A program made the translations under genes and the position numbers. From Symmetrospora coprosmae (Eukaryota; Basidiomycota; Cystobasidiomycetes; Symmetrosporaceae), in the NCBI GenBank assembly GCA_008802785.1, contig VUYT01000013.1, positions 310,001 to 374,000 on the forward strand: a DNA stretch of 64,000 bases, given 5' to 3'. Every line of letters begins with the position of its first letter. Positions within the stretch are counted from its first letter, which is position 1. Below are positions 2,251 through 63,886 of the stretch, piece after piece. The notes under the pieces are model-generated. The model was not told the DNA's origin. It ran no database searches and worked only from the letters and a program-made list of their open reading frames with translations.

Positions 2251-4735
2251 ATGAGAAGGAGCGCGCTGATTATGATGGCATCGACATCGCGCACCACCAT
2301 GGCCTCGTCGACGCCGGCGCCCTCGTCCTCGTCGTCCTCCTCGGGCACCCGCAGCGGCTTCTTCCTCAGGCAGAAGGCGCTCTCAGCCGCCAACAAGCTC
2401 GTTGCGGGCGCGTCTGCGCTTGTGAACAACGTCGTCGATGGGGGAGTGGACGACGACCAGCAGAGGGCGTCCAAACCGTCCCTGTACACGGAAGAGCGGT
2501 GTCTCGTGTTCGTGAGTGACACGCGAGGGCGCCTCGAGGGGAATGGACCATGCTTGCGCGCGGCAGACGCGAGGTAGAGCGCAGGCAGCATGCTGACCCT
2601 ATGACATGCGACCGACGCATCCTGCTCCCGCTGCCTTGCTTCTTACAACAGCCCGGGTTCGCCTTCGTAAAGAATGACGAGCTCACGGTCGGACTCGAGG
2701 GCTTCGCGTACCGGCTGCGACCGCTCGAGTCTGGTGAGTGAAGGCGCACGGCAACTGCGAGCTGCACCTTATGCCGTAGTGCTCTTGTGCTGAGAAGCGG
2801 TATGCCATTGCGTATGCAGCATCCCGCACGCAGAAGCTCTTCGTCTCAGCTGCGCGTCAGCTTGCCAGCTTGCCCTCGCTGCCAAAGACAAGCGCTGTCG
2901 CGGCAGAGGAGGAGGCTCTGGACATTGAGGTCGAGCCAGACGAGCTTAAGCGCCAGTCGCAAGAGTACAAGGAGCGCATGAAGGAGACTCAGGCACCGGA
3001 TCTTGTTGCGGCGCACGGACAATCAAGCTCAGGCTCAGGCTCGGCCTCGGGCTCCACCCCGCGCACACTGCACAATTACGCTGTGCGTGTGCGCCCACGC
3101 CGATCCAACACGACAGACAGTCTCGCGAGCGTTGCGTCCACAGCGAGTGTAGCGACAACTTCGTCAGCGCGCCCTCCGAGCGTCAAGTACTCCAATGCTA
3201 GCCTCGAGGTGCTCCACGACAACCTGCACACCCGGCTGCGCCTCTTCTTCTCGCAGAAGCTTGTCGGCCGGCGCATACGTGTGTCAGTCTATCTGCTCCC
3301 TCGCAGCCCAGCAGAAGACGGTTCCGCGAGCGTGGCGGAAAAGTGCGTAGCAAAGGGCACATTGCACACCGAGGTTGGAGGCGTTTTCAAGTCGTCCATC
3401 ACGGTGCCTTGGAGTGCAGGAGACCCAATGGGTCGGCGCTTGCGCGTGCGGACTGAACTGCTCACCGAGCAAATCGACGATGCGCCAGAGGAGACGATCG
3501 ATGACCCTGCAGCGCATGAGCGCGTGATGGGTCGTAGCGACGAGGCGAACGTGGGCGTGACGCACGCGCATGCTCCAATCCGCGTCATCTCGGACATCGA
3601 CGATACCATCAAGGCAACGCACGTCCTCGGAGGTATCAAGGCCGTGTTCCGCAACGTCTTTACGCGGCCCCACGAGGAGCTTGTCGTTGCAGGCATGAAG
3701 GACTGGTACTGGGAGATGTTCGAACGGGGAGCATGCTTCCACTTTGTCAGCAACTCGCCTTTCGAGCTGTTTGGCGTCCTCCGCGAGTATCTCAAGGCGG
3801 CCGGATTCCCGCCTGGGTCGATGCGGCTTAAGGAGTACGGAGGGGGAACGTCACTCCTTGGCGGGCTCTGGGAGGCGGCGGGCCAGAGGAAGAGGGGTGG
3901 AGTCGAAGAGATCTTGCGGGTGAGTCGTGGCGAGCCACATGTGCGTAGGGAACTCCGGCTGATGCTCAAAACCTGCGTACAGACCTTTCCGGACTCGCGT
4001 TTCCTTCTGGTTGGCGACAGCGGGGAGCAAGATCTAGAACTCTACGTCTCACTGGCCGAGCAGTTTCCTCGACAGATTCTGGGCATCTTCATCCGAGACG
4101 TCACGACGCCCGAAAGGCCCAGCGCTCCCGTCAATTCCGTGTCCCGCTTGCACATTGGCGGCAACAGGAGTGCTGGATCGTCTACCAGCACACTGAACTC
4201 AACGCTGAATCCGCCAAACAATCACGCTACAGCGGTCGGCAGGCAATACGGTCCTGACGGTACGCCAGTCCTTCCGCCCCGGCCAGGCACAAACAGCGGT
4301 GCTGGCAGTGCTCGTCCGCCGCGCCCCCTTGTGCGTCGTAACTCGGAAATAGAGCAAGAGAAGCTTCTGGCTTCAGTAGCAAAGGAAGAGGAGCAGGCTG
4401 GCTTCTTCTCGCAGTCGACCCTGCTCGGCCCGTCCGTACATTCGGCAAACGAGGGCGGCAGCTCCTCTGACGCGGACTCGGACGAGATGTCGCCCAACAA
4501 CCCCCTTCTGCGCAACACAGAGGAGAGCAGCATCCTCGCTCCGCTGGACGAGAACGGGTACACGGAGGTCGAGCGCAAGGTCATTGCCATCTTCCGGGAT
4601 CGGCTGCTCCGCGCGCAGCGGGATCTGCCTAGAGGCATCCTCCTCAAGATTTTCAGGAGCGGGGAGGAGTGCAGAGCCGATGCAGAGCGCCTGATGCAGG
4701 TCGATGAGAAGCTGGCGCACGCTGACGCGCCGTAG
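2251..4735 (+). CDS. APP1: APP1-type phosphatidate phosphatase
   Basis: Predicted Mg-dependent phosphatidate phosphatase (App1/DUF2183 family), which makes diacylglycerol from phosphatidic acid at endocytic actin patches in yeast. Exons 2251-2511, 2652-2733, 2820-3919 and 3983-4735 give 731 residues. The first junctions restore a continuous N-terminal domain (LVF|PGFAF, LES|ASRTQKL). The HAD-like catalytic motif DIDDTIK lies near residue 373 and the distal GDSGEQD motif near 492. Intron 3 (3920-3982) is 63 nt with no stop, so unspliced reading inserts 21 residues between EEILR and TFPDSRF; the family has a short junction there, supporting removal. The C-terminal 200 residues are Pro/Ser-rich. 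ATGs at 2272 and 2275 are alternative starts. Confidence 0.88.
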
Positions 4736-7776: not shown

Positions 7777-10700
7777 ATGGTGGACGGCAACGACGAGCGC
7801 GTGTGCCGAGTGTGCCGTCTGTCTGCGCCAGAGTCCGGGCAGGAGCTGTACCAGCCCTGCAAGTGCTCTGGCAGCATACAGCACGTCCACGAGGACTGCC
7901 TCAGGGACTGGTTGGCCATCAGCCGCGGTCACAAGTGCGAGCTGTGTAAGCAGCCTTTCCGATGGCAGAAGGGTGAGTGGTGTTGGGTTGTCATCGGCAA
8001 TGCGTCCAACGAAGCGGAAAGCCAGCAGTGACAGCCGAGCTGGTGCGGCGAACAGCTTATGCTGATGCCTCAAGACAATGCATTGCCGCTTCCTGCTCGC
8101 AGTCTACGCGGCACAGGCTCCGTCCCGCCTGCCGCCCCTCATCATCCTTCGGCACGTCGTCCTGACGCTCCTCGCATGTGTCCGCATGGTCGCGCGCGTC
8201 CTCCTGGTCGGCTTCGTCTGGCTCGCCGCGCTACCTTACTCGGTACTCTGGGCCTGGCGCGGCTTCTTTCACCTGGGAAAGAGCTGGGGCGTCGCATGGA
8301 ACGCCGTGGCGCAGGAGGCCGACTGGAGCAGGATGGCACTCAGCAGCCTGCTCCTGCCGCGAGCACCTAAGGGCGCATCGGCGAGCGACACAGACGCAGC
8401 TATGAAGCAGCTCGCACAGAGCGTGGCCGACCTGAAGGCAACGTGGGAGGCCATGGCCTCGCGAGCGAGCGGCACCCCGGGCAAGGATGCTGTGCACGTC
8501 CACAGCATGTCCACCACTGGCCATCTGGTCAGCTCCTCGTTGCGTCCCAGGATCACCAGCCTGGATGAAGTGTTTCGAGATTTCATGCGTGTCTGGCACA
8601 GGCCCGCAGACATCCCACACGCAGCATCGGCCTCGCCATCAGCCTCAGTGGCCCCGTCTCTGCCGGCAGTCGTAGTCAATCTCGCTGCTGAAGCAGTCGT
8701 GGACGCCGAACAGCACGCTACGACGCTTCCTCGTGCTTTTGCATGGAGACTCCTCATGGCTCAGCACGAGTACATCAATGAGGTGGTGCACGGCTTCTGG
8801 CACAGACATCAGGACACCTTGCAGCGAGTAGCCTCTGCACTATACCAAGTTGGCCCAACGATGAGTACACTGACATGTCAAGCCTCCTCTTACAGGATCA
8901 TGGCCAAGGACTGCTTCTCTGGCCAAATCATTGTCTGCTGCGTCGTGGTAGCCTTCATTGCCGCCTTTCTGCTGCGCGAATGGGTGTTGTCGAACCAGCC
9001 CTTGGCAGAAGGCGAACCCATGCCTGCAAATGGAGCAGGGGCAGCACCTGGCAATCTGCCCTTGGCTCTTCCGCCTCCTCTACTGCAAGATCCACCCGCA
9101 GAGAATGTGGACGCCATTCCCGATGCTACAGAAGCGCTGGCAGGAGAAAGCCGGCCTAGGACGAGACCCGGTAGTCCCTGGCCAAGAGAGGCCCTTGACG
9201 CAGCGGATTTGGAGGCGGAGGAAGATGCGGAGCTCGACGACACCAAGATGAAATCAGCTTCGTCTGATGCGGTGGAAGCACAGGCAGGCCCGAGCAGCGA
9301 AGGCGCGCAGGCTTTCCTGCAAAGGCAGCGCGAGAGGAACGCATCGACTCACTCAAGCGTCCCAGCAGGGCAGGCATTCCCGGCCGGCAACCCGCCTCAA
9401 CAAGACGGCCAGTTCAGGTTCCAGTTCAGCGTCGAAGATGGCGAACTTCAGAACCAGGATGGCTCGGATCAGGTAGTGCAGGCCGGCGCTGCACGTAGCG
9501 ATGATGAATGGGTTGACGCAGACGATGTGCAAGATGAGGAACAGCCTGCGTTTGGTCCCGCCCCGCAATCAGCCGTGCAGGGAGGTCCGGCTGCCCTGGC
9601 ACCTGCCGCGGTCCGCCCAGATCCGGCCGCCGTGGCGGCTGTCAATCAGCGAGCAAGAAGGAGGGCAGTCCGGAGGCAAAGGAGAAGGCTCGGTCTGCCG
9701 GAAGATCCGAGAGATTTCGGAGAGTCAGACTCGTCAGACTCTGAATTCGAGGATGACCCTTTCAATATGGGTCGGCGCCCTGGCGAAGCTGTCAACGATG
9801 CAGCTGCTAATGAGCTTGCAGATCCTCGCGCTGCCGACCGAGCCATCGGGGGCATTGCACCTGACGAGCAGGCTGCCATCGACGCTCTCCGTGATGAGGA
9901 AGAGATGTTCTGGGAAGCAGACCTCGAGGGTATCATGGAAGCTGTGGGCCTGCGTGGACCGCTCATAGCGCTTCTACAGAATGTTGGACTCATGACGCTG
10001 CTGGTCACAAGTTTGCTGGCGGTTGCTGTTTGGATGCCGCTGATGCTGGGCAAGACCGTAGTTGCGGTAAGGCTGCAGCGGTGTCGTCCGTCCATCGCAA
10101 GGTGTGGAAGGCTGATACAAATGTCCTTACATGTGTCCTCAGACCAACGCATATCGCTTAGCCTTCCTTCCGATAAATCTGGTCCGCCTCATCACAGACC
10201 CGGTCGCCGACCGCCTCGTAGCACTGCTTGGCAACGGGAAGGCCAAGCTGGTCACCCCGCAGCCTCCTATGCCTGCCAGGACCAGCTGGATCGCCGCCGC
10301 CCTATCCTTGCTCACGTACCGGAAGAAGAAGCCAGAGCCTACTTTCGTACAGTGGACGATTCAGCAAGTGCGCGTTGTTGCGAATCGCTACCGGGAGTCA
10401 GCCACAAATATCGTGGAGACTGCCGGGCGCATCGGGCAGCTGCGATGGCGCTCCATGGCTACCGACGACGGCGATATCGAGCGCATCCTGTGCGTCGCTC
10501 TCGGCTACGCTCTCGTCATCGCGGGTGCCGCTGCGTACCTCCGGTATACGCACAACGTTCAGGCAAGGAACGCCAGTCGAGTCGTGCGGGAGGCAGTCCA
10601 ACAGCACTTCGTCATGGTCAAGGTGAGGGTCGGGCCTCTTTCGTTTGAGCGGTGTGAGCTATCACTGATTAGCTCCGCGGCTGCTCAGGCCGCTCTCTTC

Positions 10701-12805
10701 TTCTTAGTCGAGATCGTCCTGTTCCCGACCATTTGCGGCTGCCTTCTCAACTTTGCCTCCATACCTTTCTTTCCCGGTGCATCCATCGCATCGCGGCGCG
10801 CCTATCTCGAGTACGCGCCTATAACCGGCCTGTTCCTCACATGGCTAGGCGGGACTCTGTACATGTACGCCTTCGCCCAGTGCATTGCAACCGTGAGGAG
10901 GTGCCTGCGCAAGGGTGCTCTCTTCATCATTCGCGACCCAACGCATCCTGACGTAAGTCGGGCCTCTCGCCTTGTCGCGCTCGACCTCTTTCATCTAAGG
11001 GGCTCAAGAGCTTTTTTCCTTACCCTCCCCATCACAGACCAATCCCCTTCGTGAGATTCTCGATACGCCCGCTCACAAGCAAGCTCAGAAGATTGGCAGA
11101 TCTCTTCTCATCTACGGGGCCGTCATCCTGGCCTGCTTCGGGGCACTGCCCTGGCTAGCGCGCTACCTGGACTTCGGCCTCTTTCCTTTGCGTTGGAATA
11201 TGACGCAACCCATATCTGCGGCACCTTTCGATCTCATCTTCGTCCTTCTCGTCATGCCCTTCACCATCGGCAAGACCCGTCCCAAGCGTGTCGTCCGCGA
11301 GCTCCTGTCGCAGTGGATTGCCCTGACTTCGCATCAGCTGCGCCTATCTTCCTACATGCTGGGCCGACGGCAACAGGATGAAGAAGGCACGCACATCCGC
11401 AAGAGCTGGAGGGACTGGCTGCTGTGCAAGCGAGCAGCCTCCCCTCAGTCGAGTACAGCTTTCGCACACAAAGCCGGGGGCAGCATCGACTTTGTCAAGG
11501 ATGGCGAGTTCCGCCGCGTACCAGCCATCGACGGTGTCAAGATCGTGCAGAAGCGCATGTTCATCACGGTCAATGAAGACGGAACGCCGATCGATGAAGA
11601 CGGGGCCAAAGGCATCAAGGCGCAGCTCGAGAAGGGCAACGTCGACACAAATTTCACCGTCGTTTACGTTCCCCCGCATTTCAAGACCCGCATCCTCCTC
11701 TTCATCTATCTGTTGGGCTTCACTGGCTCGCTGGCCATATTCTCCTGCATTGCGACGCCGCGTGAGTACACTCCACCGATGCTTGCTGATTGCGGGCGAT
11801 TGGCTGACGGGACTCGCCTGTTGCGCTTGCTTGATAGTTCTCGTCGGGCGTTTCGTCCTGGACCGCATCGTCAACGAGCCGCTGCACGATACTTACAGCA
11901 TTCTCGTTGGCCTTCATACTATTCTCACCGCCTCGTACATCCGTTCCTCATGGCAGCAACTCGCCAGCGCGCGGGGCAGCCCTTCGCCTGCATCCTTCCA
12001 TTGGAATCGGCAGAACGCCAGCAAGGCCTTTGTCCGATACGGTCAGGCTGCTCTGCTTCTCCTCAGTGGCGCTGTTCTTCTACCGTTCCTGGTTGGCGCA
12101 GTCCTGCATGTCTTTGTCATTGCACCTCTGGACACGCCAGCTACGGAATTGCCGAGCCTGAGCATGTCAATGTGCTGGTGCTATGGCGCCCTAGCGTGCT
12201 CGCTCATGTTGCGAGTGCTGCCAGTGGAGTCACTCAACCTCTTCAGGATTCCCGTGAGTCGCTGCATTTCTGCACGAGAACACCGCCACCCGCTGAGCCA
12301 TGCTGACACCCACGAAATTGCGCTACAGATCCAAACGCACGGGCTCATCGGCGCTGCGCCAGAGCTCAACAGGCGCATTGGGATTGTCAATCTCCGCCTT
12401 GCCATGGGCCTGGCCCTTCCCGGCCTGGTCACGCTTACACACCTCCAGATCACCAAGTGCATCCTCATTCTTAGTGGAAAGTCGGGCGCTGCGGCCGCGA
12501 TCAGCACGTCCATCAGTGCCGACTCTTTCGGCTCTGTTTACGGGTACAAGGTCGCGGTCCTCTCGATGACTGTCGTGACGACTGTCCTCATGCTGCTGCC
12601 GCACGCTCGGTACTACGCTCAGAAATGGGCGAGCGCGGTCTTTGAGCGCGAATACGTTGTGAAGGTGGGTTTGCTCCGATTCAGGGGAGCTTCAGGCGGG
12701 GCGGGAAGTGCTGACATGTGCTGGTGACTGGTCTATCAGCGCAAGCTCCTGAACATCGGCGATCCGGCGACCCCGAATGAAGAGGCGCATCCTCCCGCGC
12801 TGTAG
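7777..12805 (+). CDS. SSM4: DOA10/SSM4/MARCH6-type ER membrane E3 ubiquitin ligase
   Basis: Predicted ER and inner-nuclear-membrane RING ligase of the ERAD-C pathway. Eight exons (7777-7972, 8103-10066, 10143-10622, 10689-10952, 11038-11761, 11838-12253, 12329-12664, 12740-12805) give 1481 residues, close to yeast Doa10. An N-terminal RING-CH (C4HC3) finger spans residues 10-61, starting CRVCRL and ending HKCELC. It is followed directly by VYAAQAPSRLPP and hydrophobic segments. A long acidic, probably disordered region (about residues 340-600) precedes a second multi-helix membrane part. The tail EYVVKRKLLNIGDP resembles the short conserved C-terminal element of the family. Introns 10623-10688 and 12254-12328 are multiples of three without stops, yet splicing them restores family-like membrane segments. 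Confidence 0.92.
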
Positions 12806-14581: not shown

Positions 14582-16333
14582 ATGCCCGTCCCAGAGAGCG
14601 AGCTGCCCCTGCTGAGCAGTCTGGTCCAGATCAGGGTCAGGCTCACGGCTCTCAAGAAGGACAGGACGGAATACGTGAGGGCGAAGGACGTGTTTGAGAT
14701 CTACAGAGAGGTCCTGCAAGTAGGTGAGTGCTGGCCTGCGCGGGTTGCTGAGCAGAGGACCGCTTGCGTGCCTGCGTGCCTGGCTGGCTGGTTGGTACTT
14801 ACATGCACGCACATTGACAGTCACCCGCTTGAATGAGATCCGCGAAGCGAATGAGCGCTCCTTCAAGGAGGAGCAGGCACTGCGGCAGCACACCGTCGCT
14901 TCGTTGACGGCGAGAAGCGGGACGCCGTCTGGCAGCAGCGGAGGCGGGAGCAGCAGCAATGGCCCAGCGACACCCACCCCAGAAGAGGCGAATCAGCAGC
15001 AAGAGATGAACCGCGTCGACACAACGCTGGCCGATGTCTTCCAGCTCCTCAGCTTGTTCTTCCTCACGATAGGCAAGAGCAGGAGCGCCCCCGCGACATA
15101 CTGCCAGCTCGCGACAATGATGAAGCTCCTCGACCACATGAAGGAGTCGGGCGTGTACACGTCCAACGACCTCCAGCCGTTCAAAGCCCGCTTGGCCGAG
15201 CTCAAGGGCATCATCGTCGCCGAGGTCGACTACTTCAACCCGGTCGACTCAGATACAGACGCACCGCACCCGCCCCAGGAGACACCGCTCGATGTCACGA
15301 CCATGGCAGAGGACCCCGTGTCGCACAAGGCGCTCATCAAGCTCCTCCTACGCAAGCACGACAGATGCCAGCAGCGCCTGAACGAGCTGCTCAAGTCGCT
15401 CAGCGTCATCAGCGTCGACCTCGTCGCCCTGCATCAGAAGCTCATCAACTTGCGCCGGCAGCTCGTCGCCATCGGCGCCAAGGGCCTCAAAGTCAACAAG
15501 GGCGAGCTCGACCACGTCGCAGAAGAGCTGCGGAAGATTGAGGCGTCTCGCGTGGACGGCAAGTTCGTCGTGGATGAGGAGCAGCCGACGCAAGGACAGC
15601 AGATCCTGTCCGGGTTGCTGGAGGAGACGTTTGAGATTTTGCAGGAGATTCACTCGCGGGAAGAAGAGGTCGACCCGCAGCTGCGCCCGATCTTTGACCG
15701 ATTGACAGAGATGCGGGGCCAGCTGGAAAAGCTCACCTTGACGCATAGGTGGACGCTGCGAGAGACGGATCTCTACAACTTTCAAGTCAGTCTGCAGGAG
15801 ATTGACAGGATGAGGGTCGACGGAAAGTTCGTAGACAGCGAGGGCAACAAGCCGCACGGGCAGAGGGTGGGTGCCATCCGTTTCCAGTGAATCCTCGGAA
15901 GATGGCTGAAGGGGCCGTGTGCCGTGTACGCAGGTCCTCCTGTACAATCTGCGGCGGTGCTACGGTCTCATCTACCGTCTGATGGCCTCCTCAGAACCCA
16001 TCAGCGAGGAGCTCACGCCTGTGGCGAACAAGCTCTCGACAGTCCGCCGCTGCCTGAACGAGGTCCTCAAGTTCGGTGGTCCATTTTCGACGCGCGACCT
16101 GTATCCGTACCAGCTGGCGCTCGCGCAGATCGAGGCCATCCGCGTCGACGGCAAGTTCGTAGGCAAGGATGGCAGCTTGCCGGAAGGGCAGGCCATCCTG
16201 AATGCCAATCTGAGCGAGAGCTACGAGATGATTCAGGTGAGGCTGAGTCCGGTCTCGCATTTGGCGCTTTTCTCAGCTGACGCTGCTCCGTGTGCTTACA
16301 CAGATGCTGAAGGAGGAGATGGAGCAGGACTAG
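14582..16333 (+). CDS. UPF0662 (DUF2408) family protein
   Basis: Conserved fungal protein of the UPF0662 family (relative of S. cerevisiae YPL260W). The biochemical role is not established. Exons 14582-14723, 14821-15866, 15934-16236 and 16304-16333 give 506 residues; the last exon codes only ten codons including the stop. The protein is largely helical. Three segments carry the same block, RVDGKFV followed by a Gly/Gln-rich turn (PTQGQQ, PHGQR, PEGQA), at about nt 15550, 15811 and 16142, indicating an internal repeat. A Ser/Gly-rich insert (SGSSGGGSSSNG) lies near residue 80. The frames at 14724 and 15919 are parts of this gene, not separate genes. Confidence 0.85.
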
Positions 16334-16799: not shown

Positions 16800-17993
16800 C
16801 TAGTTGGCAGGTATGGTCTTCTTCGCAAAGAAGGCCACAGAGGAAGCGACGACTGCAATTGTGAAGAGGATTGTGACGGCTCCTGCAGCGATTCCAGTCC
16901 TCGCAAGCAGCATGCACAGACTGCGAGACCGTTCAATCCCGCACACTTGCGTGATGCTGGTACCGCGAGCCTGCTGTGCGTGCTGGGAGGTGACGTAGCC
17001 ATCTACGGAGGCCGCAGACGGGGACCGCGTCAGCCCGATGCATTCGTGCACCTCGCTTGCGTGCAGTGCAGCTCACTCTTGAAAGCCATTCTGTCAAACG
17101 AGTATCAGGACGCCGTCAACGAGGAGCGCGCAAGGACGATACCCAAGGGTTGTACCTCTCACAGAATCGCAGGCACTAGCCACTTTGGGTATCGCTTCTG
17201 CTAGTCAGTCAGGCGGTTTGCGGCAACTTCAACGTATGTTACTCACGGCGACGAGGAAGAAGACTTGGACGACGAGAAGCTTAACAATATGTTTCCTGGC
17301 TGCAAATAGTCGGCTTGTCGTGAGTCGATTCAGCCTATCGAAGCGCATGGTCCCTGTTCCTGGCCACGGCCATTCCGTTCCATCTTGTTTCAGAGGGAGC
17401 TGGTTGTCTGCATATTCAACGCTGTAGGTCCAGGCTCTGCGCATTGGATGACGTGCTGAGAAAACAGTACAAGACTGCGTCAGCAGACACACTGAAGGGC
17501 TTGTGGCCGGCGGACTATCGACTGACCATCCATAAAGACCCAGAGAATGTAGACCGTCTTGAAGACTAGCGTAAGGATTGCCAGACCCAGTACATACTGC
17601 AGTGCAGAGCGAATGTGCGAAATTAGAAGGTCAGACGCGGTCAGCTTCCCTGTACATCCCTCACGGTAGAACCCGCTCACTGACTTGGCTGACTCTGTAC
17701 TGGGTATTATAGTCGAGCAAATCCCGACGCCTAGCGCGGGCGAAAGCGTTCAGAAAGTTACTGGCAAAGACGATTGTCACGATGCTTCCAACGGCGATGG
17801 CGATGGCGAGGAACCAATTAAGCGCCGCCGAATCTCCGTGGGTGCCGCCTAGCTTCTTCTGCTTGTCATTTAGCGCCCGCTCTAGCAGGAGGTGATGTGG
17901 GATGTACGGTTGACGAGACATCATGGCTGCGTCCGGAGTAGCCTGGCTAATGAGGTCACCTTGCCGCTTCGCTAGTTCTCTGGCGAGGCCCAT
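16800..17993 (-). CDS. tandem tetraspan membrane protein, copy A (unrecognised family)
   Basis: Member of a family I do not recognise. Six exons (17993-17685, 17596-17527, 17455-17247, 17182-17163, 17090-17077, 17002-16800) give 274 residues with phase closed throughout. The 20-nt and 14-nt exons are supported by equal-length, similar exons in copies B and C. Four hydrophobic helices are visible: after GGTHGDSAALNW (exon 1), YVLGLAILTLVFKTVYILW (exon 2), LLVVQVFFLVAWLVPAIL (exons 3-4) and GIAAGAVTILFTIAVVASS (exon 6). Conserved family blocks are GTHGD, LNWFL, RHPMR-AW, W-P-GTM and CGIERSR-LC. By positive charge, the basic RHPMR loop is probably cytosolic and the two-Cys loop lumenal or extracellular. 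No enzyme motif was found. The Met in exon 5 (MAFK) is not the start; upstream exons are conserved across copies. Confidence 0.78.
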
Positions 17994-18753
17994 CGGATCA
18001 AGCGCGATTTAGCAAGCGAACAAGAGCTTGCCGGTAATGTGCGACCCTCTCCTGCGTCAGCGCGCGCTGGCTTATGAGTTTCTGTTGCACATCTGTGTGA
18101 GCGGACAGTCCGACACAAATCAGCTGCTTCACGTTAGTGGCGCAGGAGGCGGTGCGGGCTGAGGCATCATTGATCGACTCGAGATCCGGGGGGCGCGATG
18201 CGCATGGGTGATGCTAATTCAAGCACGTCTGTATCGGACGCTTGCATTCCGTGCGGCGAAGTCAACCATTCATAGAGCGCAGATCGGGCCCGGCGACCTG
18301 CCATGGCTGGCAACTGTCAGACGACCGCGACGATTATGACCGAGTGCGGATTCGCACTCTGTGATGGCACGCAGGCTCATCTGTGAGCGCATCTGGCTTC
18401 AGAGTATTGCAATCGCTGTCAGAAGCAGTCAGGAGCAGAAAGGACGTATTAAGCTAGCCGCCTGTCGAACGCGGTCCAGTCACGTTCGATCTTTCCCATT
18501 CGCCCATCATGTACAGGGCGCCCAACGCTCATCTCGGCGGCCCCACTTTCCGTTCAATTGCTGCGTGCTGCCAAGGTCGAGCCGCGTTTCGTCAGGACTT
18601 CCGTACCGCTGGGCTGGTGCCAGCAGAGATTGACGGTTGTGCAGTCTTGTGCTGCCGCCCTTCGCGGCACAATATCGTAGGCCAAGACATCCACCGCTGT
18701 TGCGCGTTTCATCCGTAGATTGCGGCTATGGGCAGGAGCCCAGGCAGGCTTGT
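17994..18753. other. intergenic between tetraspan copies A and B
   Basis: About 760 nt separating the start of copy A from the stop of copy B. It should hold the copy A promoter and copy B 3' end. I looked for family blocks such as CGIERS or GTHGD and found none, so there is no visible decayed fourth copy. Confidence 0.45.
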
Positions 18754-20041
18754 TTAGAATCTGGGTGTCTTTTTGGCGATGTAGCCCACGAATGACGCGG
18801 AGAGAGCAATGGTGAAAAGCAGGGCGATGACTCCTGCTGTGATACCAGCTCTGGCGAGTTGCATACAGAGGTTTTGAGACCGCTCGATACCGCACATCTG
18901 CGTGACCGTGATTTTGCCGTTGTGTCGGGAATGGTCGAAGTTCACGTAGCCATCTGAAGAGGAACCCGCGGATAGGCGCATATTAGCCTGTGTTCAGACC
19001 GGCACTGCAATATAGAGCTTACCTTTGAAGGCCATGCTGAAAATTCAAAGCAGGAGATTGATAGGCAGTCAGCGGAAGGTTCTTGGTACACCAGAGAAGG
19101 ACTCGCACATCAGGGCGGGTACGAGCCACTGTCGGTAACAACAATTCCGTCAGTCGGGTAGATCATCATATCTCGCAAAGGACAGAACTCACGGCGATCA
19201 GGAACAAGGCTTGGACAAACATAAGCTTCTGGATGTGATTTCTGGCGGCGAACATCCGGCTTAGAGTGAGTCGACTTAGCTTGTCAAACTTCATAGTGCC
19301 CGCTCCAGGCCATGGCCATGGAGTCCAATCATCTTTGAGCGGGGCTTCCCCTGCCTGCTCGTGACCGAAACTCCATGCTTTCCGCATTGGGTGGCGTGCT
19401 GGAAAGTATACATGAACGAAAGCTTAGTCTACGAGTTCTTGCGACCCACCACGACGTGGCAGGCGACTTGCCATCCATGAAAACCCAGAGTGTATGCACG
19501 GTTCCGAAGGCAAGGGTTACGACTGCCAAGCCCATCACGTACTGCTCGGCAAAATGTGTGAGCGAGAACAATCAGATCAGAGAAGCGAGGCACCAATCGC
19601 CATCCGGGCTCCACCACGGACCTGAGTCGCCTTGTACGAGGTGACGTAGTCCTCCATATCCCGATCTACCGCTCGGGCGAAAGCATCGAGGAAGTTCTTG
19701 GATAGGACGAGAGCGGTGACGGAGCCTACCACAATGGCGATCGAGAGGAACCAATTGAGCGCCGCGGAATCTCCATGGGTGCCGCCGAGCTTCTTCTGCT
19801 TTGCGTTTGTCACGGCATGTTCTAAGAGTCGCCGATGCGGCATGTAGCGGGGACCTCCCGGTGGGCCACGGAATCCAATCCCTGCTTGGGACCCTGAGCG
19901 AGAGTTGTGGCCACTTGGTGGTCTGAAGATTGGTGGAGGTGCCTGGTATCCACCAGCATAATGCTGGGGGGCGAGCGCCCCGGATGGGTCAGGAAGCTGC
20001 TGGAATGCGTCGTTGTTGGCGGCTTGATCGTTGTTAGCCAT
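18754..20041 (-). CDS. tandem tetraspan membrane protein, copy B (unrecognised family)
   Basis: Paralogue of copies A and C: 309 residues from exons 20041-19622, 19541-19472, 19398-19193, 19128-19109, 19036-19023 and 18953-18754, again with 70-, 20- and 14-nt internal exons. It has the longest N-terminus, a Pro/Gly/Asn-rich, probably cytosolic segment of about 70 residues before GGTHGDSAALNW. It shares YVMGLAVVTLAF, RHPMRKAW, WPWPGAGTM, WLVPALIMAFKDGYVNF and MCGIERSQNLCM with the others. Intron 2 (19399-19471) begins GCAAGT instead of GTAAGT, a classic GC-AG donor; the other two copies have GT at the same place. Function is unknown. Tandem orientation points to local duplication. Confidence 0.78.
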
Positions 20042-20793
20042 TTCGTAGGCGATAACACGTATGGCGAACGAATCAGATAGTAAGCACTGATGGGCGGAGT
20101 AACCGCTTGCGCCGGGGGCTACTCCTGATCAGCGAGAGCGTCTGCGCTTGTACTGCATGCGTCAGACACGGACTTGGACGCACACAGCCCAAACGGCGTC
20201 TTTGCAGGCGGCTACTGCCGAGCGCTGAACGAGGTCAGCGTTACAGTGTGCGTGACATTGGCCGACAGGGAGCAGCTGGCTCCCAGTCGTGTGCCTAGCG
20301 GGCGGTGCAGACGGTAAAAGGGCGGGATTGTCCAACTTTCGCCCCTGCCCTGATCCCATCCCGAGTCCCCTCAAGCAAGACAGGGTAGAGCGCCTCTTGC
20401 TTCCCTCGACATCATACGTTTGCATCTTGCTGCTGCAGTGTCCGTCGGACAGCGTTCGAGATAGAGCGGGACCGGAGGTGGCATGGTCTACTCAGACGAG
20501 GGACACGGAATGCTGACGATCACGGTCGCTGCATTGACCAGGCATACGGAACGTCTACCTCTTTCGCCAGATGTCTCCCGAAAGCGAGTCCCATCCCTGC
20601 AGGCGTTCATCGTGTTTGCCGAAAGGAAGTCGCAGATCAGGACTGGCATGTCGTATGAGCGATGCTTCTGCCGTCCTGCCATGAGCAGACGCTGCATGCT
20701 GACGTCCAGGTCGGCGACATATGTATGTCTTGTCGTAGGAGGATCGGATACTTCAGTGAACCGTCGATTTGTCCCCATCAGGCGTACCTACGA
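20042..20793. other. intergenic between tetraspan copies B and C
   Basis: About 750 nt between the start of copy B and the stop of copy C. Short open frames occur on both strands but none shows family similarity or clean codon use. It likely holds the copy B promoter. Confidence 0.45.
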
Positions 20794-22008
20794 TCAACCC
20801 GGGAGTTCCGCTGGTCCGCCTTGCTGCGCAGGTGTAATAGTCTTCTTCGCCAGGTAGCCAATCAGTGACGATATAAGCGCGATGAAAGTGATGATTGCAA
20901 TGACGGCGGTCGTAATGCCTGCTTTCGCCAGCTCCATGCAGAGATTGCGAGAGCGCTCGATCCCACATAGCTGGGTTACGGTGACGTTCTTGTTGTGCTT
21001 TGAACGCTCGAAGTTGATGTACCCGCCTGAAGGAAGAGGGACGAGTGTCAGCGATAGCTCATCCGCCTGGCCCGACTTGACCCGCCTCACGGTCGAAAGC
21101 CAGACTATACAGTAGAGGAAGCCGGGAAGGGTAGCGAAGTGAGCCTGCGTCAGTTCTACCGGCCACATATCACAGCTAAGCTCTGTGTGACGTACAGGAC
21201 GCCAGGTACCAGCCACTGCCGGGACACTCACGAATTAGCTCTTTTCAAGATGCGCTCAATAGAGCCTTTTCGGCAGGAAAGCGATCGCTTACGGCAATGA
21301 AGAGCAAAGCCTGGAATATCATGAGCTTCTGGATGTGATTTCTCTCAGCGAAGAGGCGACTCGTGGTGAAGCGGTGCATGCGGTCGAAACGCATCGTCCC
21401 TATTGCGGGATAGGGCCATTGCGTGGTCCCGTCCACCTGCATGGGCATCCCACCCTCCGTCTGGTCCTTGGCGTAGTTCCAAGCTTTACGCATCGGATGG
21501 CGAGCTTTGCGACGCGTGATTATCGGCAACCGGGCATTAGTGCTCCGCAGCCTGCTTATCCCCAGCACCTTCAAAACTACGATTGAGCGGACTTACAGTC
21601 CATGAACACCCAGAGGACATACAAGCTCTCGAATGCGACGGTGATGATGGCGAGACCCATTACGTACTGCGGTAAGGGCAGGAGGATTGCGTCGTAAGTG
21701 CTCCTGTCGGGACACTGCACCGCAACGGCCCCAAATGGCTCAGAATCGATTGAGGGACGGACCTGAGTGACTCGATACGGACGATAGTAGTCCTCTACAT
21801 CCCTGCCGCTCGTCGTCTTCGCGTACTTGTTCAGGAAGTTGTTGGACAAGACAATGACGGTGATTGACGCAACCACGATGGCTGCGGCGAGGAACCAGTT
21901 GAGGAGAGCAGCATCGCCGTGCGTCCCTTCGAGCCTCTTGTTCTGCTTGTTGATGGCTTGCGAGAGCAGGATGGCATGCGATAGCTGATGTACCGGTCGT
22001 GGAGCCAT
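20794..22008 (-). CDS. tandem tetraspan membrane protein, copy C (unrecognised family)
   Basis: Third paralogue: 264 residues from exons 22008-21763, 21666-21597, 21504-21293, 21215-21196, 21104-21091 and 21026-20794. Its 14-nt exon codes LAFD in place of MAFK, so the exon is kept while the Met is not. This argues against a start codon there in copies A and B. Blocks shared with A and B include GTHGD, LNWFL, YVMGLAIITVAF, RHPMRKAWNY, YPAIGTM, WLVPG and CGIERSRNLC. Sequence in helix 1 (LLNWFLAAAIVVASI) and the N-terminus differs most, so C is probably the most diverged copy. It is divergent from RPC53. Intron 1 is a multiple of three without a stop, so plain translation from 22008 runs through it. 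Confidence 0.78.
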
Positions 22009-22698: not shown

Positions 22699-25032
22699 AT
22701 GTCTTCTCGCGGGCGCGGACGTCCAGGGAGCTCGACGCCAGGTCCTCCCGCCGCAAGAGGGCGCGGTCGCGGCGCAGCGAGGTCGTCCCTGTCGCGGCAG
22801 CTCTCGTCAGACGAAGAAGACGCCAGCTATGGAGCAGGAGCAGGAGCAGGGACGGGGACCACAACGCCAAAGGTCGAAGAGGATGACGACGATAGCAGCT
22901 TTGCAGATGCGCCGACCAGCCGGGCGTCCTCGTCTGTCGCATCCACTCCAGCTCCAGCAGCAGCAGGATCATCGAGAATTGGAGCCGGTCGCCCGACAGC
23001 AAGCAGCACCGGCGGGTCCACACTGCTGCGAAAGAATGTCTACACGGGCGCGAACAAGATGAAGTTCATGCCTCAGATGGTCAAGCGAAAAGTCAAGGAG
23101 GAGTGAGTCGAGATCGCTTCCTTACGTGAAGCGGACGCCACCACGGGCTTTGCAGAGTACACACATCCTTGCGCTGTCGAGGCGCTCAACATGCTGACAT
23201 GCGCACTCCTCCTCGCTTTGTGCTCGTTCCGCTTATTACAGACAAGATGTCAAAGAGGTGGGCAGTCTTGCAGTAGTCCGGACTGCCACGCACACGCGCA
23301 TCTCGCTAACACGTCCATCTACTCGAACTACAGGAAGAGCTCGACATCTCGCTCACTGACTTGAGCGCAAGTAGGGGCAGGGGGAGAGGGAGAGGTGCTC
23401 GCGGTGGAAGGGGCGAAGGGCACATGCAGCCGCGGGGGCGAGGCGAGGTCATCCTGACTGCAAGCGGTGCCTTCGCCCAGGGTCCTTCGATGGCAGAGCG
23501 GGCCCAGAGCTCGAGAGGGCGCGCACTCGGGGCCAGCGTCATGTCCGGAGGAAGCGGTGGAGGCGGTGGAGGGGCAGGCGGATCAGGAGGCGGCGGGGCG
23601 AGGACCTCGACGTCGACGGCCAACCTCGTCGATTCGGATCCAGAGGACTATAAAGGCGACGACACGTACGACCAGTCCGGCGCCAAGGTCGTCACGGTGG
23701 ACCTGTTCGATATCGGTCTCGAAGGCGAAATGGCTCCCCTCGTCCTGCCGCGAGACGAGAAGAAATGGCAAGAGGAGGAGCTGCTGCGGAAGGAGAACGA
23801 ACGGGCAATGGCAAAGATCCGTGGCAAGCCTGATCCCTATCCCGACGGAGTCGTCAAGAAGGAGGAAGGCAGCGGCGAGGGGACGGCAAAGCCGAAGATC
23901 AAGCTGGACCCAGAGGAGGAAGAGGAGCGCATGGCCGCGTCTTTGCGCGGTACGCCGGCGACAATTACGAGTGGAACAGAGTCTCGAGCGCAGAGTGTGT
24001 CGTCATCGTCCGTTCGGCCAGAAGACGAGACGCAGGAGGCAGGTGCTGGCGATGCAGCTGTCCTGGGCATTGACGATGTCAAGATCAAAGTCAAGAAGGA
24101 GGACATCTCTGGCTACTTTGCTCGGGACGACCTCGCCCACTTCGAGCAGTTCTACATCTTCCAGTTCCCGAGACTGTTTCCGCAATTCTGCGATACGGAA
24201 GCGCGAGCCGCCGCGGAGAAGGTCAAGGACGAGGAAAGCGGAGCAGCAGGGGAAGATGTCAAGCCGTCTCCGTTCGCCTTGGGTGCAGGAAATGCCAGCT
24301 CGGCATTCGATCCTACAGCCAAGCACAAGGTCCGCTCAGCGTACCACGAGTCAGAATCAGAAGCTTGGAGAGACTACGAGCCGGGCAAATGGCAGGGGTG
24401 GGGCCGAAACCCAGGAAGAGATGACCGCGAGGCGATCGCTGGGAAGGGTTCAGAGAAGCTCGAGGGTAGGATAGGAAAGATCAAGGTCCGACAGAGCGGA
24501 AAGACGACAATGAAGCTCGGTGGCATCGAGTATGAGGTGGGTCGTTCTGCACCGTCTACCCTGTTCTCAGACGAGAGATCAATCAGACTGACGTTCCTCT
24601 TCCTCTGACTCGTAGATTCTGCCCGGTGCACCAGCATCGTTCCTGCAAGAAATTGCAGTCCTCGATACAGACACCGAAGGCAAGCCCGGCATGTTTGTGA
24701 TGGGCCAGACGAGCAAAAAGTTCATCATCACGCCCGATCTGCCCAAGCTGCTCACGCAAGACCGCAACGAAAGGGCAGTGCACATCAAGCGGCAGAAGGA
24801 AGAGGAAGCGACGTTGGCGGCGAAGGTCAAGGAGGAGCAGCTCGAGGCGGATCTTCGGGCCGCCAAGAAGAAGGTAGCGGCACCTGCTGCGAAGAAGGCT
24901 GGCACAGCGGCAGCCTCGGGAGCTGCGAAACCTCGACCAAAACCTGCGGCTGCAGCGGCCAAGCCTGCCCCTGCAAAGGCCGGGACGTCCTCGACAGCGG
25001 GAACGAGCAAGGCACCTCCGGCGAAGAAGTAG
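22699..25032 (+). CDS. RPC53: RNA polymerase III subunit RPC4/RPC53
   Basis: Subunit of the Pol III RPC53-RPC37 heterodimer, used in initiation, termination and reinitiation at tRNA and 5S genes. Exons 22699-23102, 23242-23257, 23334-24536 and 24616-25032 give 679 residues. Exon 2 is a 16-nt microexon (QDVKE) that bridges two acidic and basic blocks. The N-terminus is RG/Ser-rich with the family block KMKFMPQMVKRKVKEE. The C-terminal domain reads GKIKVRQSGKTTMKLGGIEYE|ILPGAP, with the last junction falling inside the conserved RPC4 domain, then SFLQEIAVLDTD. An Ala/Pro/Lys-rich tail follows. It is longer than yeast RPC53, mostly through low-complexity Gly and Glu/Lys inserts. Confidence 0.88.
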
Positions 25033-34983: not shown

Positions 34984-37900
34984 CTACCCAAAGGTCTGCG
35001 ACGTCCTCGACATCTTCTTGAACTTGGACAAACGCCATTCGTCCTGGTCTTTAGCGAATCTATCGAAGAGCGGCTGGATCCTCTCTTCTCGCTTGCGCTT
35101 GGAGATGCGTGCCGCATCCGCAACCTTGAAGAATTGTGGCGCTACCTCGGTTAGCCACCTTGGCTCGATGACGGTGACTGCATTGCAAGTACGATGCTCA
35201 GCGCCACTACAGTGTAGTGAAGCCTAAGCTAGGACGGTCCATGCTCACCATTCCGACAGTACTCTCTCGTTGTCATTAGCAAGTCGTGGTACACGATCCA
35301 TTCCGGGGCTCGGTTGAATAGCGCAGACGAGGCTGAAGGGAAGCGTGTCAGCTCTCGGTCCAATCCTCAGGACGACACAGCGCTCGAGAAGGTGACTCAC
35401 GATGTAAAAAGACTGGCGTCCCTTCGACAAGCGTCTTGTAACCCTCCTGCGGATCCTTCTTTGCGGCGTGACGGAAGTATCCGGAGCAGATGGCTCTCCG
35501 GATCCGGTTGTAGTTGTTACCGCAAGAGATGATGTCATTCTTGTACCGATCCATAATGCCGAGCAGCTGTTTCCGGACGTCTTGCGCGTGGGCGAGCGAC
35601 CGGCCGTGAATGAAGTTGTCTACTGTCCACGGCTTCGAGAACTTGGATGCCTTCCAGCCGTTGTAGACCGTGAGCAGGGTGAGGTGATCACCCTCTGGCT
35701 GGTGGAATTTGGCCTTCTTCGCGTCGGCCTGCGCCTGCTTATCCTTTGGCCTGTAGAAGATGTTCTCGGCGGAAAGCATGCACACAATTGTAAGAATCTC
35801 CTCCGAGCATCCGAGATCGCACGATGCGATGAGCATCTTCGCCATGGCTGGGTCCATTGGGAAGTCGGCCATTTTCCTCCCGAGTCGGGTCAGGAGGCCT
35901 TCGTCATCCAGAGCCGACAAGGCGTAGAGGTTCTCCAGAGCCGTTACCATTGTCTGCTGCGGCGGGGCATCCATAAAGTCGAAGTTAATAAGATCGTTGA
36001 TGCCCATCGCTTTGAGCGTGAGAATAGTAGACGCCAGATTCTGTCGCTGGATCTCCGGCACTGGATTTGGCAGCATCTCGTTCTGGAATGCTGCCTCGGT
36101 GAAGAGCCGATAGCACTTGCCGGGCCCGGTTCGTCCTGCTCGGCCGGATCGCTGTCGGGCCTGTGCCTGCGAGATCGGAGTCAGGATGAGCTGGTCCATC
36201 CCGGTTCGCGGGTCGTATGCATTCTGCTTCGAAAAGCCCGGGTCCTGTAGATAGCGTGTGTCAGCTTGCGGAGGAGGTGAATTGGGAGAGCGCGGTCTGC
36301 AACTCACCACGACGTAGTAGATACCATCGATGGTCAACGATGTCTCTGCGATGTTGGTGGCCAGGATACACTTTCGCGCTCCCGGTGGTGTAGGCTCGAA
36401 GATGCGGGACTGCATCTCTGAAGGCAGCGAAGAGTAGACAGGAAGAACGATGAGTTCTGGCACCTGCGGTCCCAATGCCTTCATGCGCTCGTAGAGGATT
36501 TCTGCCGATGTGTCAATCTCCTCTGCACCCGTCAAAAAGACGAGAATGTCGCCTTCGGGTTCGGCCAGATGGATCTGCATAACGGTGATGAGGGCTGCAT
36601 CGAGGTAGTCGGACTCTGGCTCTTTGGTGTAGAGAATCTCGACGGGGTGCATTCGACCGGGGATTGTGAAGATGGGGGCGTTGAAGAAGTATGTCGAAAA
36701 CTTCTCTGCATCTAGCGTGGCGGACGTGACTATGATCTTGAGATCCGGACGCCGCTTGCATGCTTTCTTCAAGAGGGCGAAGAGGACGTCCGTGGCGATG
36801 GTGCGCTCGTGCGCCTCGTCCAGCATGATGACACTATAAGCCGACATGTCTGGGTCGATGAGCGCCTCTCGCTGCAACATGCCGTCCGTCATGTATTTGA
36901 TCTTTGTTTCGGGCGAGGAGCAGTCCTCGAACCGGATCGTGTACCCGACTTCTGCGCCCAGCCGGCATCCCACTTCCTCGGCAACACGCTTGGCCACGGA
37001 CATGGCTGCCACACGACGCGGCTGCGTGCACCCAATCTTCAGTCGGTCGGCGAAGCCTTCTTCGGCCAGGTACTGCGTCATCTGCGTCGTCTTGCCTGAT
37101 CCCGTGTCGCCAACGACGACTAGAATCTGGTTGTCGTGTACGGCATCGATGAGCTGCTGTCGGAATTTGAAGACGGGTAGCCCTTCCCTTTGCTCCTTCA
37201 TGGGCAGGCTCGTCTGCTTGCCCATCCGGATGTTGGCTTTTCCAAACGTCTCCTTCTTCCATGCAGGCTGCTCCTCCGCCATCCTGCCCATCGCACTGCC
37301 TCGTGCATCTTGCGCAAACTGCCGGTCGGTCCGTTTGGCGAGCGGGTCCTGCCATGCCGATGACAGATCCTGTGCTTCGGCGTCCGCTGCGTCCTGCGCC
37401 TCCTGCTGTCGCAGTTCCCTCCTCTCCTTTGCGAGCGTGGCGCCCTGCAGCGCAGCCCTGTTGAGCGTCCCGTCAGGCGCTTTAATGATCTTGACTGGAC
37501 TGAGGTCGAGCAGCTTGCGCGACTGGCCAGCCAAGAACGGGGCATCGTCCTCACGGACCTCGATGTCCAGCTCCTCGTCCTCCTGCGTGTTGTTGGGATT
37601 GGTGAAGTCGGCATTGGCGTTGTGGTCGTGCAGATCTGGGTAGTCCGCAGCAGAGACTGCGCCTGAAGCAATGAGCTGCTTGATCTCCCACCGCTCCGGC
37701 GACGTGAGACGCTTGGCCGAGCGCTTGCCGTCGTCTGCGAAGCTCCTCATCTTCTTCGGCGGTTCTGGCGCATCGAAGCCGCCCATGCCTCGCTTGCCGA
37801 GTGGCGCATTGTTGCCGCCCGTCGCGTTGGCCAGCTGCTGCTCGGCGATCTCCTGCTCCGACATGACGCGCAAGTGCGGCGAGAGGTCGCGACCCGTCGT

Positions 37901-38833
37901 CTGGTCGACATCTTTCATGGACAAGCTGATGCGGTTGCCCGTGATGCTCATGACTTTGACTTTGACCGACTCTCCCTTTGCCACAGCATCTGATGGGTGG
38001 TTCAGACGGGCTCCCTGCTGGATGGAGCCGATGTGCACCATCCCTTCGTGTCGGCCCATGAGGCCTTCGAGCTGCACGAATGCGCCAAAGTCTCGCATGT
38101 TTGTGACTTTGCCGTCGTAGATTTTGTACTGGACAGGCTTGTCGTCTGGCCGTGGGCGCGCGCCACCACCGCTTCCGCCTCCCACATCTCTTCCGTTGCG
38201 CCCGAGTCGAGGAGGACTGACGTCCACTCTCCGGCTGCTCCTTCCGCGGTCGTAGTCATCCCTGCCGTTGTCCCGGGAGCGATCGCCTCGGTCACCCCAG
38301 CCATTGCCTCGAGATGATCCAGCCGCATCCTCCGCCACGGACTTGCGCTTCTCTCCGATGGAGTCGAGTTGGCTCATGAGATCGTCCACGCCTTTTGCGA
38401 CTGGGTTCTTTTCCTTCTCCCTGCGTTCTTCCTCGATGAGGTCGTCGATACTCTTCCACCGGTTTCCGTCCGGCAGCGACAGGACGTTGGCCTTTTCCTT
38501 TGCAGACTTGGCAGCAGCAGCGGCGGCAGTACCATTGACTCCCCCTGCGGTGCCTGAAGCAGCCCTCTTTCCCTTGTACTTTGGGTGCATGGCGTTGATG
38601 AGGCGGTCGAGGTTGACCATGAGCGAGTCCGAGAACTGCTCCCCTCCGACCTCCTTGAGCTTGCCCTTGAACTCGCTGGCGTCCTTGCTCTCCTCGTGCA
38701 TTGCGACGATGAACTCTGCGAGCGTCTTGTCGCCCATCTCATCCCCAATGTGGTTCTGCAGCTCCTGGACGAGCGAGTTCGTCATGGAGAGGAACTCGAG
38801 CTGGTCGAGCGGGTTGGCAGCCGTCGACGCCAT
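34984..38833 (-). CDS. PRP22: pre-mRNA splicing DEAH helicase PRP22 (DHX8)
   Basis: DEAH-box ATPase that releases spliced mRNA from the spliceosome. Exons 38833-36308, 36244-35401, 35332-35249 and 35177-34984 give 1215 residues. An N-terminal helical domain leads to an Arg/Asp-rich linker, an S1 RNA-binding domain ([20 protein letters not shown], about residue 234), the P-loop [10 protein letters not shown] (about 574), DEAH (about 671), SAT and [12 protein letters not shown], then the OB-fold and a C-terminal WRLSKFKK tail. The S1 domain separates PRP22 from PRP2, PRP16 and PRP43. Intron 1 (36245-36307) is 63 nt, a multiple of three and without a stop; splicing gives YYVV|DPGFSKQ as in the family. 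Confidence 0.96.
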
Positions 38834-62200: not shown

Positions 62201-63886
62201 CGGTCATGGGCGACGGAAGATCAGATAGGCCTGATGAGGAGGACAATGAAGCGAGTGGCACGGATGCTCCTCCGCCTGCAGCTCCTATGTTCCTGATGGC
62301 GGCCAAGACACACGCTAGGGAAAAGCAGAAGTCGGAAGAGCATGGCAGCAGAGGTCATGCCAAGAGACACAGCGATGACGGCGATCCCTTCCTCATGGGC
62401 CGTTCTGCAAAGAAAGGCGAGATCGCCTCCGCTGCCGCTGCTCGGGGACGGACGGGCAAGTCCAGAGTCGAGCAAGGAAGCAGGTCAGCTGCGGCAGAAG
62501 TGACACGCTTCGGAGGAGCTGTTTCCTCGCTGGCCAGCTCGAGCAAAGCTCCTTCCGCCGCCTTATGGGCGGATGTCCCCAGTACGTCCCGTAGCGGCAC
62601 GGTCAAGAAGCGCAAGGGCCGAGCTGGCCAGGTCGTCCTTCCTGAGTCGATCGAGGAGGACCTCTCAGCAGTCGGGAAGGCCATTATCAGTACTAGGAAG
62701 ACGGCACCCAGGGGCGACGACAGCGACGGTGATGCCGATGTGCGGACCCCTGGCTTACCTCCGACAGACGACGCGACGTCTATACGAGCTGGCGGTAAGA
62801 AGCCTATGACGGTCACTAGGGCGTTGAATCAGGTCGAGAAGCGAAGGCAGCGTGGAGTTCGCCCCGACGCCGACCCTGGATCGGGAGATACCGGCTCGCA
62901 TTCCCGCAAGCGAGGTCGGACAATAGCCCAAGACTCGCCCGTAACCGGCCAGCACGTATCATCCTCAAAGCGGGCCAAGATGGAGGTCCAGCCTTCCCCT
63001 CGAGCGCTAGACCAGGCCTTGCCAGCGCGACGGTTCGTTGTCGAGCGAGAGAAAGACTACAGCGAGCCATACCCTGGCCAGGATCAACTGCGGCAGATCC
63101 AAAAGAAGAGAAAGGAGGCACTCCGCGCAGATCCGTACAAGCACAAGGGGCGAGGAGCGTATGCCCCTCAACTAGCGGGGTGAGATAGCGCGTGGCAGAA
63201 AGGCGCAAGTGAGCCAGGCTGACCCGCTTCCATTCATCCGCTGCTTCATCGAATACCGTAGCGCTCTGGCCTCGAAGAACTTCGCCCGCATTGAGATCAA
63301 CCCCGAGCAGAACAACGGCGTCTCGTACGCCTATCAAGAGGTCGTGAGAAACAAGGAAGCGAGAAAGCAGATGCACGGCGTAGACTGCGACTGCTGCAAA
63401 GGGGTGAGCCGATGCGAGCTGGTCAAAGAGGGACGAGCATGCGCTGAAGATGATATCGCAATCTCCCTAGTATTACGAACATGCAGTCCGACACCTGCCG
63501 GTCGAAGAGAGGGAGGCGGCCATCCTGCAGCTCATACAAGATTCCTCCAGGCACCGACAGTCCTGGGAGGGCGCACAGACACCTCCACAATACTGGTCAG
63601 CCTTTGACGCCACTGCTTTCGGAGCAAATTGTCCGTTGACTGAACGTCTCTTCTGACGGCACTTTTGCGTTGACGTTTCTTCAGGCACATGGGCTTCCCT
63701 CCGACGCAGCAGGTCGAAGAAGTCAGAGGCGAGGCCGAGCGATTGGAGCGCGAAAAGAGAGAAAAGCTAGAGAAAGAAGCGAAGTGCGTGCGGGATCTGC
63801 TGCTGTAGGGACGCACGAGACTGACACTCGTTCTGCCCGGTCCGCGCAGCCGCTGCGATGGTAGGTACCGCTACAAGCCGAACTAG
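59254..63886 (+). CDS. SAE2: SAE2/CtIP/Ctp1-type DNA-end resection factor, unusually long
   Basis: Cofactor of the Mre11-Rad50 nuclease in processing double-strand breaks. Seven exons (59254-59404, 59482-59569, 59643-63179, 63262-63403, 63471-63595, 63685-63783, 63850-63886) give 1392 residues. Helical and coiled-coil segments are at the N-terminus (MLQTMAQWAQQK, LEDLVAKLQDDLKE, LRKENDRIKHKYDRLADRHD). A disordered Ser/Arg/Glu-rich middle of over 900 residues follows. The C-terminal domain is diagnostic: EINPEQNNGVSYAYQEVVR, MHGVDCDCCKG|YYEHAV (CxxC), SSRHRQSW (RHR) and PPQYW|HMGFPPTQ. The ATG at 59767 is in frame with exon 3 and looks like a start, but exons 1 and 2 join it in phase and extend the coiled coil. 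Confidence 0.88.

Follow-up and report, generated by a model that had tools for sequence, protein, structure and literature searches.

A predicted family of four-helix membrane proteins with two tandem gene triplets in the basidiomycete Symmetrospora coprosmae

Several families of four-helix membrane proteins have been described. MARVEL domain proteins (PF01284) include Nce102, occludin and synaptophysin, SUR7 and Pil1 are fungal families, and the tetraspanins (PF00335) are defined by a CCG motif in their large second loop. Fungal genomes also contain many unclassified membrane families. Here we analyse a tandem triplet of genes (g1, g2 and g3), lying between positions 16800 and 22008 of a 64,000-nucleotide stretch of Symmetrospora coprosmae DNA (the window), and conclude from sequence comparison that the triplet belongs to a larger, multi-copy family of predicted four-helix membrane proteins that matches no described family in the libraries searched.

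The described systems each resemble these proteins in part. The likeness to MARVEL proteins lies in the four helices, the probably cytosolic termini and the cysteines of the second outer loop; the difference is that helices 2 and 3 are joined here by a large, conserved loop. From the MARVEL feature set (four helices, cytosolic ends), four hydrophobic segments are observed, together with a basic helix 2-3 loop, and the topology is predicted. SUR7/PalI proteins (PF06687) share four helices, cytosolic tails (again predicted here) and the occurrence of several paralogues in one fungus, but the present proteins lack both a pair of cysteines in the first outer loop and the Claudin-like W/C-C signature. 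The tetraspanins share four helices and a cysteine-bearing second outer loop, which spans only about 30 residues here as against the large tetraspanin loop, and the CCG motif was absent from all seven full proteins of the family described below. By eye, a DxRH motif after a helix and a W-x2-P motif within a helix recall DRY and CWxP, the motifs of class A G protein-coupled receptors (PF00001), but those receptors have seven helices rather than four.

Seven predicted members in one genome

The preliminary description of the window had confined the family to the triplet. We searched the genome, 20.05 Mb on 77 contigs, with the g2 protein and recovered, beyond the triplet, a single match, on contig C65 (expectation value, E, 6e-7), corresponding to a fourth gene, g4. 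Its last acceptor can be placed at two sites, the second giving a spliced product of 428 residues and the first one of 435. Over the core, g4 is related to g1-g3 (blastp with g4 as query, E 3e-27 to 7e-23). A search with the g4 core then gave three consecutive matches on contig C24 (E 2e-6 to 1e-4), which make up a second tandem triplet: c24a (C24:128660-130441, 451 residues), c24b (C24:131156-132991, 470 residues) and c24c (C24:133681-135417, 423 residues). All three are on the plus strand and have seven exons, among them micro-exons of 13 and 22 nucleotides (nt). The c24 proteins matched g4 with E 7e-25 to 1e-21 and g1-g3 with E 9e-12 to 4e-19. Searches of the genome with c24b and g3 yielded no additional member. 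Two marginal matches were dropped: C11:664380 (E 0.005), which by eye is an ABC-transporter-like stretch, and C56:43586 (E 0.12). With at least four members outside the triplet, the family thus comprises at least seven, both counts being lower bounds.

Relatedness across the groups was supported by Smith-Waterman comparison of five distant pairs, which scored 140-260 against a maximum of 85 for decoys shuffled within segments, that is, 14.5-26.6 standard deviations over the decoys. In a tree of the seven sequences, the c24 copies clustered together, as did g1-g3 (supports 100/100 and 99/99); g4 formed a long branch of unsure placement. Such separate clustering indicates that the two triplets arose independently. 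We conclude that these sequences represent a real protein family, multi-copy and larger than the window triplet.

The members share a defined anatomy. Four hydrophobic segments are present in all seven, and 22 columns are invariant across the seven cores, including an Asp before helix 1, W-x3-D-x-R-H ending helix 2, H-x2-K-L starting helix 3 and W-x2-P inside helix 3. Apart from a pair of cysteines before helix 4, spaced from C-x7-C to C-x9-C, the seven share no cysteine position. One phase-2 intron occupies an identical place in every member, at alignment column 176 in the sixth codon beyond the invariant helix 3 Trp; none of the remaining introns of the aligned core coincides between the three groups (g1-g3, g4 and c24). 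The family as we define it, by four-helix core, DxRH, HxxKL, W-x2-P, cysteine pair and phase-2 intron, includes all seven.

Lysines plus arginines number 8-10 in the helix 2-3 loop, 1-5 in the helix 1-2 loop and 3-7 in the helix 3-4 loop. Since they are most numerous in the helix 2-3 loop, a topology with both termini in the cytosol is the likelier one. The first outer loop would then hold no cysteine in six members and one in g4, and the second outer loop would be of only about 30 residues. None of the charged residues shared by the seven cores lies deep in a helix. Four members (g4 and c24a-c) carry long, cytosolic-looking C-terminal tails, rich first in A, E, K, R and Q (a coiled coil by eye) and then in G, P, R, S and Y. 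A YDFVGYS stretch occurs near the C-terminus in two of the three c24 proteins (c24a and c24b).

Gene models and divergence of the window triplet

All three triplet genes are read from the minus strand. The g1 model (17993-16800) joins six exons (17993-17685, 17596-17527, 17455-17247, 17182-17163, 17090-17077 and 17002-16800) into a frame for 274 residues. Six exons likewise make up g2 (20041-18754; 20041-19622, 19541-19472, 19398-19193, 19128-19109, 19036-19023 and 18953-18754; 309 residues) and g3 (22008-20794; 22008-21763, 21666-21597, 21504-21293, 21215-21196, 21104-21091 and 21026-20794; 264 residues). Splicing therefore reproduced exactly the lengths and ends first proposed, although the exon joins themselves are predicted. 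The identical six-exon layout was also borne out: intron phases are 0,1,0,2,1 in each gene, and exons 2, 4 and 5 measure 70, 20 and 14 nt in every copy. The introns, of 64-96 nt, are all GT-AG except for g2 intron 2, which is GC-AG; its donor at window position 19471 reads GCAAGT, and g1 and g3 have GT at the corresponding position.

Micro-exons 4 and 5 lie at 17077..17182 in g1, where they code for the end of helix 3, at 19023..19128 in g2 and at 21091..21215 in g3, all on the minus strand, and the phase-2 intron that separates them is the one common to all seven members. Because the two exons sum to 34 nt, skipping both would shift the frame.

GTHGD, LNWFL and RHPMR[RK]AW were found in all three proteins, as had been described. 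CGIERSR, the fourth of the motifs listed at the outset, holds for g1 and g3 and reads CGIERSQ in g2. It belongs to the stretch before helix 4 that carries the conserved cysteines (minus strand; CGIERSRSLC at 16914..16943 in g1, CGIERSQNLC at 18865..18894 in g2 and CGIERSRNLC at 20938..20967 in g3), and these two cysteines are the only ones in each of the entire proteins. Each protein also has the four hydrophobic stretches expected from the preliminary description; in g1 five windows exceeded the threshold, two of them overlapping on helix 3. The N-termini of g1-g3 do differ, as had been noted, and that of g2 is rich in Pro, Gly and Ala over about 65 residues, but larger tail differences are found at the C-termini of the distant members. 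In g1, an in-frame stop lies shortly upstream of the putative ATG, and Met24/25 offers a second possible start.

Pairwise blastp identities of the three proteins were 63% (g1/g2), 58% (g2/g3) and 51% (g1/g3) at E of about 1e-100 or better. Identities at codon positions 1, 2 and 3 were 0.66-0.75, 0.77-0.81 and 0.39-0.45 among the triplet pairs, a pattern as for coding DNA. For g1/g2, synonymous divergence (dS) was 1.8 and the ratio of non-synonymous to synonymous divergence (omega) was 0.14; synonymous sites were saturated in the other two pairs. As background for the flanking sequence, we compared non-overlapping random stretches of the window (90 pairs), which were on average 43% identical (range 27-59%). 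The aligned introns of the triplet were 30-56% identical and the 200-base flanks 37-54% identical, the latter within the range of the random stretches. Introns and flanks have thus fallen to background identity while exons have been kept, indicating that the duplications are old and that the proteins are maintained by selection.

Where this selection acts is less clear-cut than the proposed conservation of a membrane core. Helices 1-3 are indeed conserved among g1-g3 (12/23, 12/22 and 12/25 columns invariant), but the helix 2-3 loop, probably cytosolic, is conserved about equally (26/57 columns), and of the four helices, helix 4 shows the lowest conservation (8/29 columns). The conservation of this loop weakens the contrast between membrane core and cytosolic parts, and the proposal of a selected core combined with different cytosolic partners holds only in part.

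Family searches and possible roles

No match over the Pfam cut-off was obtained for g1, g2, g3, g4, c24a or c24b, and when all seven cores were scanned, no Pfam family reached an E below 0.0016. The weak matches were to WLS-like (0.0016), 7tm_1 (0.0033), ER_lumen_recept (0.0082), Srz (0.0083-0.012) and MARVEL (0.01). Five families were matched in two of the seven members: MARVEL, the best-scoring of the five, DUF2569, Cation_ATPase_C, DUF7139 and DHHC. As a control, we made 14 decoys by shuffling within segments, 12 of which were aligned and scanned against Pfam (best 25 of 29 families); these reached E 0.00033, 0.0018 and 0.0029 with other families. Since the decoys equal or beat the real cores, we dismissed the weak Pfam matches as evidence of family membership. 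At E up to 10, neither SUR7 nor the tetraspanins were among the Pfam families listed for the seven members, and the 7tm_1 match reached 17.4 of the 30.5 bits required, in one member only and no better than decoys.

Other libraries gave a similar picture. The seven cores had nothing accepted in NCBIfam, where four families appeared with a best E of 0.0045; one NCBIfam match, CyoA, recurred in three of the seven members (best E 0.031; 13.7 of 266 bits in one member) and was judged to be due to chance, without decoy comparison. PHROGs gave no match for g3, the only member submitted, and PDB sequences queried with g2 and a seven-member profile gave nothing below E 0.088. Although 22 stretches in IMG/VR and six in GTDB fit a pattern, none was confirmed as a relative. 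Among the titles and beginnings of abstracts listed in literature searches, none described such a family; because sequences of this sort are seldom printed in papers, this negative carries little weight. The initial view that no recognised family is involved thus stands, and by these comparisons the family matches no described family in the libraries searched.

As to function, we tentatively favour, while holding it somewhat short of an even chance, a membrane-organising tetraspan scaffold that would work like MARVEL/Nce102 or Sur7 proteins, membership in those families not being implied. The members would form a multi-copy, probably fungal tetraspan family with both ends cytosolic. Their cores would assemble side by side through the helices and through an outer loop closed by a putative disulfide between the two cysteines. 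At the cytosolic face, the Asp preceding helix 1, the DxRH following helix 2 and the HxxKL ahead of helix 3 would make up a conserved charged collar that grips a partner or the head groups of lipids, and different cytosolic proteins would be recruited by the variable tails. A charged ring at the predicted cytosolic face and a two-cysteine loop that are kept, with tails that vary in place and length, are what would be expected of a protein that packs with itself and recruits partners. Two papers (PMC10702824, PMC9431316) propose self-packing combined with partner recruitment for Nce102 and the Sur7 tetraspanners of yeast membrane domains. The absence of a charge kept deep in the helices of all seven argues against an ion-coupled transporter.

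Several observations weigh against a scaffold. The loop before helix 4 is itself fairly basic (3-7 lysines plus arginines), so that the positive-inside rule is weak there. Polar or charged helix positions are kept in subgroups: a Gln in helix 3 (column 163) and an Arg where helix 2 begins (column 78), each in four of the seven members, column 224 of helix 4, which is Glu in three and Gln in a fourth, and, where helix 4 begins (column 216), a charge whose sign varies. From the subgroup-kept positions, some members may have a role in transport or sensing. No Pfam model of a tetraspan scaffold was matched above its cut-off. Moreover, the genome already encodes matches over cut-off to SUR7 and Pil1, so that no such role is vacant. 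A genome-wide search gave four SUR7 matches (one each on C11 and C1, two on C41), of which the one on C11 passed the cut-off (65.5 bits), and a single Pil1 match over cut-off (103 bits); neither family was matched at a family locus. Matches to these two fungal families support a fungal source of the DNA.

A divergent MARVEL origin, as a branch beyond the reach of the Pfam model that has the same fold by descent and an enlarged cytosolic helix 2-3 loop, we regard as rather unlikely. In Nce102 and other MARVEL proteins the N- and C-termini are cytosolic and the second outer loop carries cysteines, and the matches in g3 and g4 place the first two helices on the beginning of the model. These matches, however, span two helices only and score 15.1 bits (g3) and 16.3 bits (g4 core) against a gathering score of 32.8, with two of the seven members matched at E up to 10; the 12 shuffled decoys reached E 3e-4 to 3e-3 with other families, and the one MARVEL match of the genome (29.7 bits, just short of the gathering score, on C33) lies away from the family loci. 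We would give about the same small chance to a channel, transporter subunit or receptor-like sensor in which the cysteine loop senses the outside and the cytosolic collar relays the signal. The conserved W-x2-P in helix 3, DxRH ending helix 2, the two-cysteine loop, the polar positions at columns 78, 163 and 224 and the weak WLS-like, 7tm_1, KDEL-receptor-like and Srz matches (E 0.0016-0.012) would all suit such a protein, but it would have four helices only and lack a deep charged residue common to all seven, and the weak matches do not beat decoys.

An interfacial enzyme handling metal or lipid, with the D, D, H and H (and R and K) at the cytosolic face as ligands, appears very unlikely. All six residues are invariant in the seven cores, but this invariance comes from one genome and its seven sequences, the Asp that precedes helix 1 might simply be a helix cap, the Arg or Lys could pair with Asp, and no enzyme family was matched above cut-off. 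We consider it scarcely credible that the triplet reflects an artefact of gene modelling or decaying duplicates: exons as short as 20 and 14 nt are unusual, but the frames are open, phases and micro-exon lengths recur in all three copies, and both the omega of g1/g2 and the divergence of introns alongside retained exons speak against it. Bolder, and in our view improbable, though less so than an enzyme, is a new membrane fold family in which the D, D-x-R-H and H-x-x-K cluster of the four-helix core binds a metal ion or phosphoinositide head group and so gates recruitment through fast-evolving tails, the family having undergone two independent amplifications into tandem triplets within one fungus.

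If confirmed, the family would enlarge the known range of fungal tetraspan proteins, with two tandem expansions that occurred independently within a single genome. It would also supply a defined group of invariant residues, as well as old micro-exons that could be overlooked by automatic annotation. Such a family would overturn nothing, tetraspan membrane proteins being well known as a general kind.

Neighbouring genes

No shared gene neighbourhood was established among the family loci, the C24 neighbours having been viewed as raw lists of open reading frames only. In the window, the triplet is flanked at lower coordinates by a gene for a DUF2408 protein (14724-15890, plus strand, E 1e-34) and at higher coordinates by one for the RNA polymerase III subunit RPC4 (23361-24608, plus strand, E 1e-14). 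Two long open frames on the plus strand, at 59767-63183 (1138 residues) and 8078-10648 (856 residues), had no Pfam match at E up to 1e-4. Further genes encode an APP1 phosphatidate phosphatase catalytic domain (2870-4735, plus strand), a MARCHF6-like C-terminal domain (11378-12727, plus strand) and a DEAD/DEAH helicase with HA2 and S1 domains (35348-38833, minus strand).
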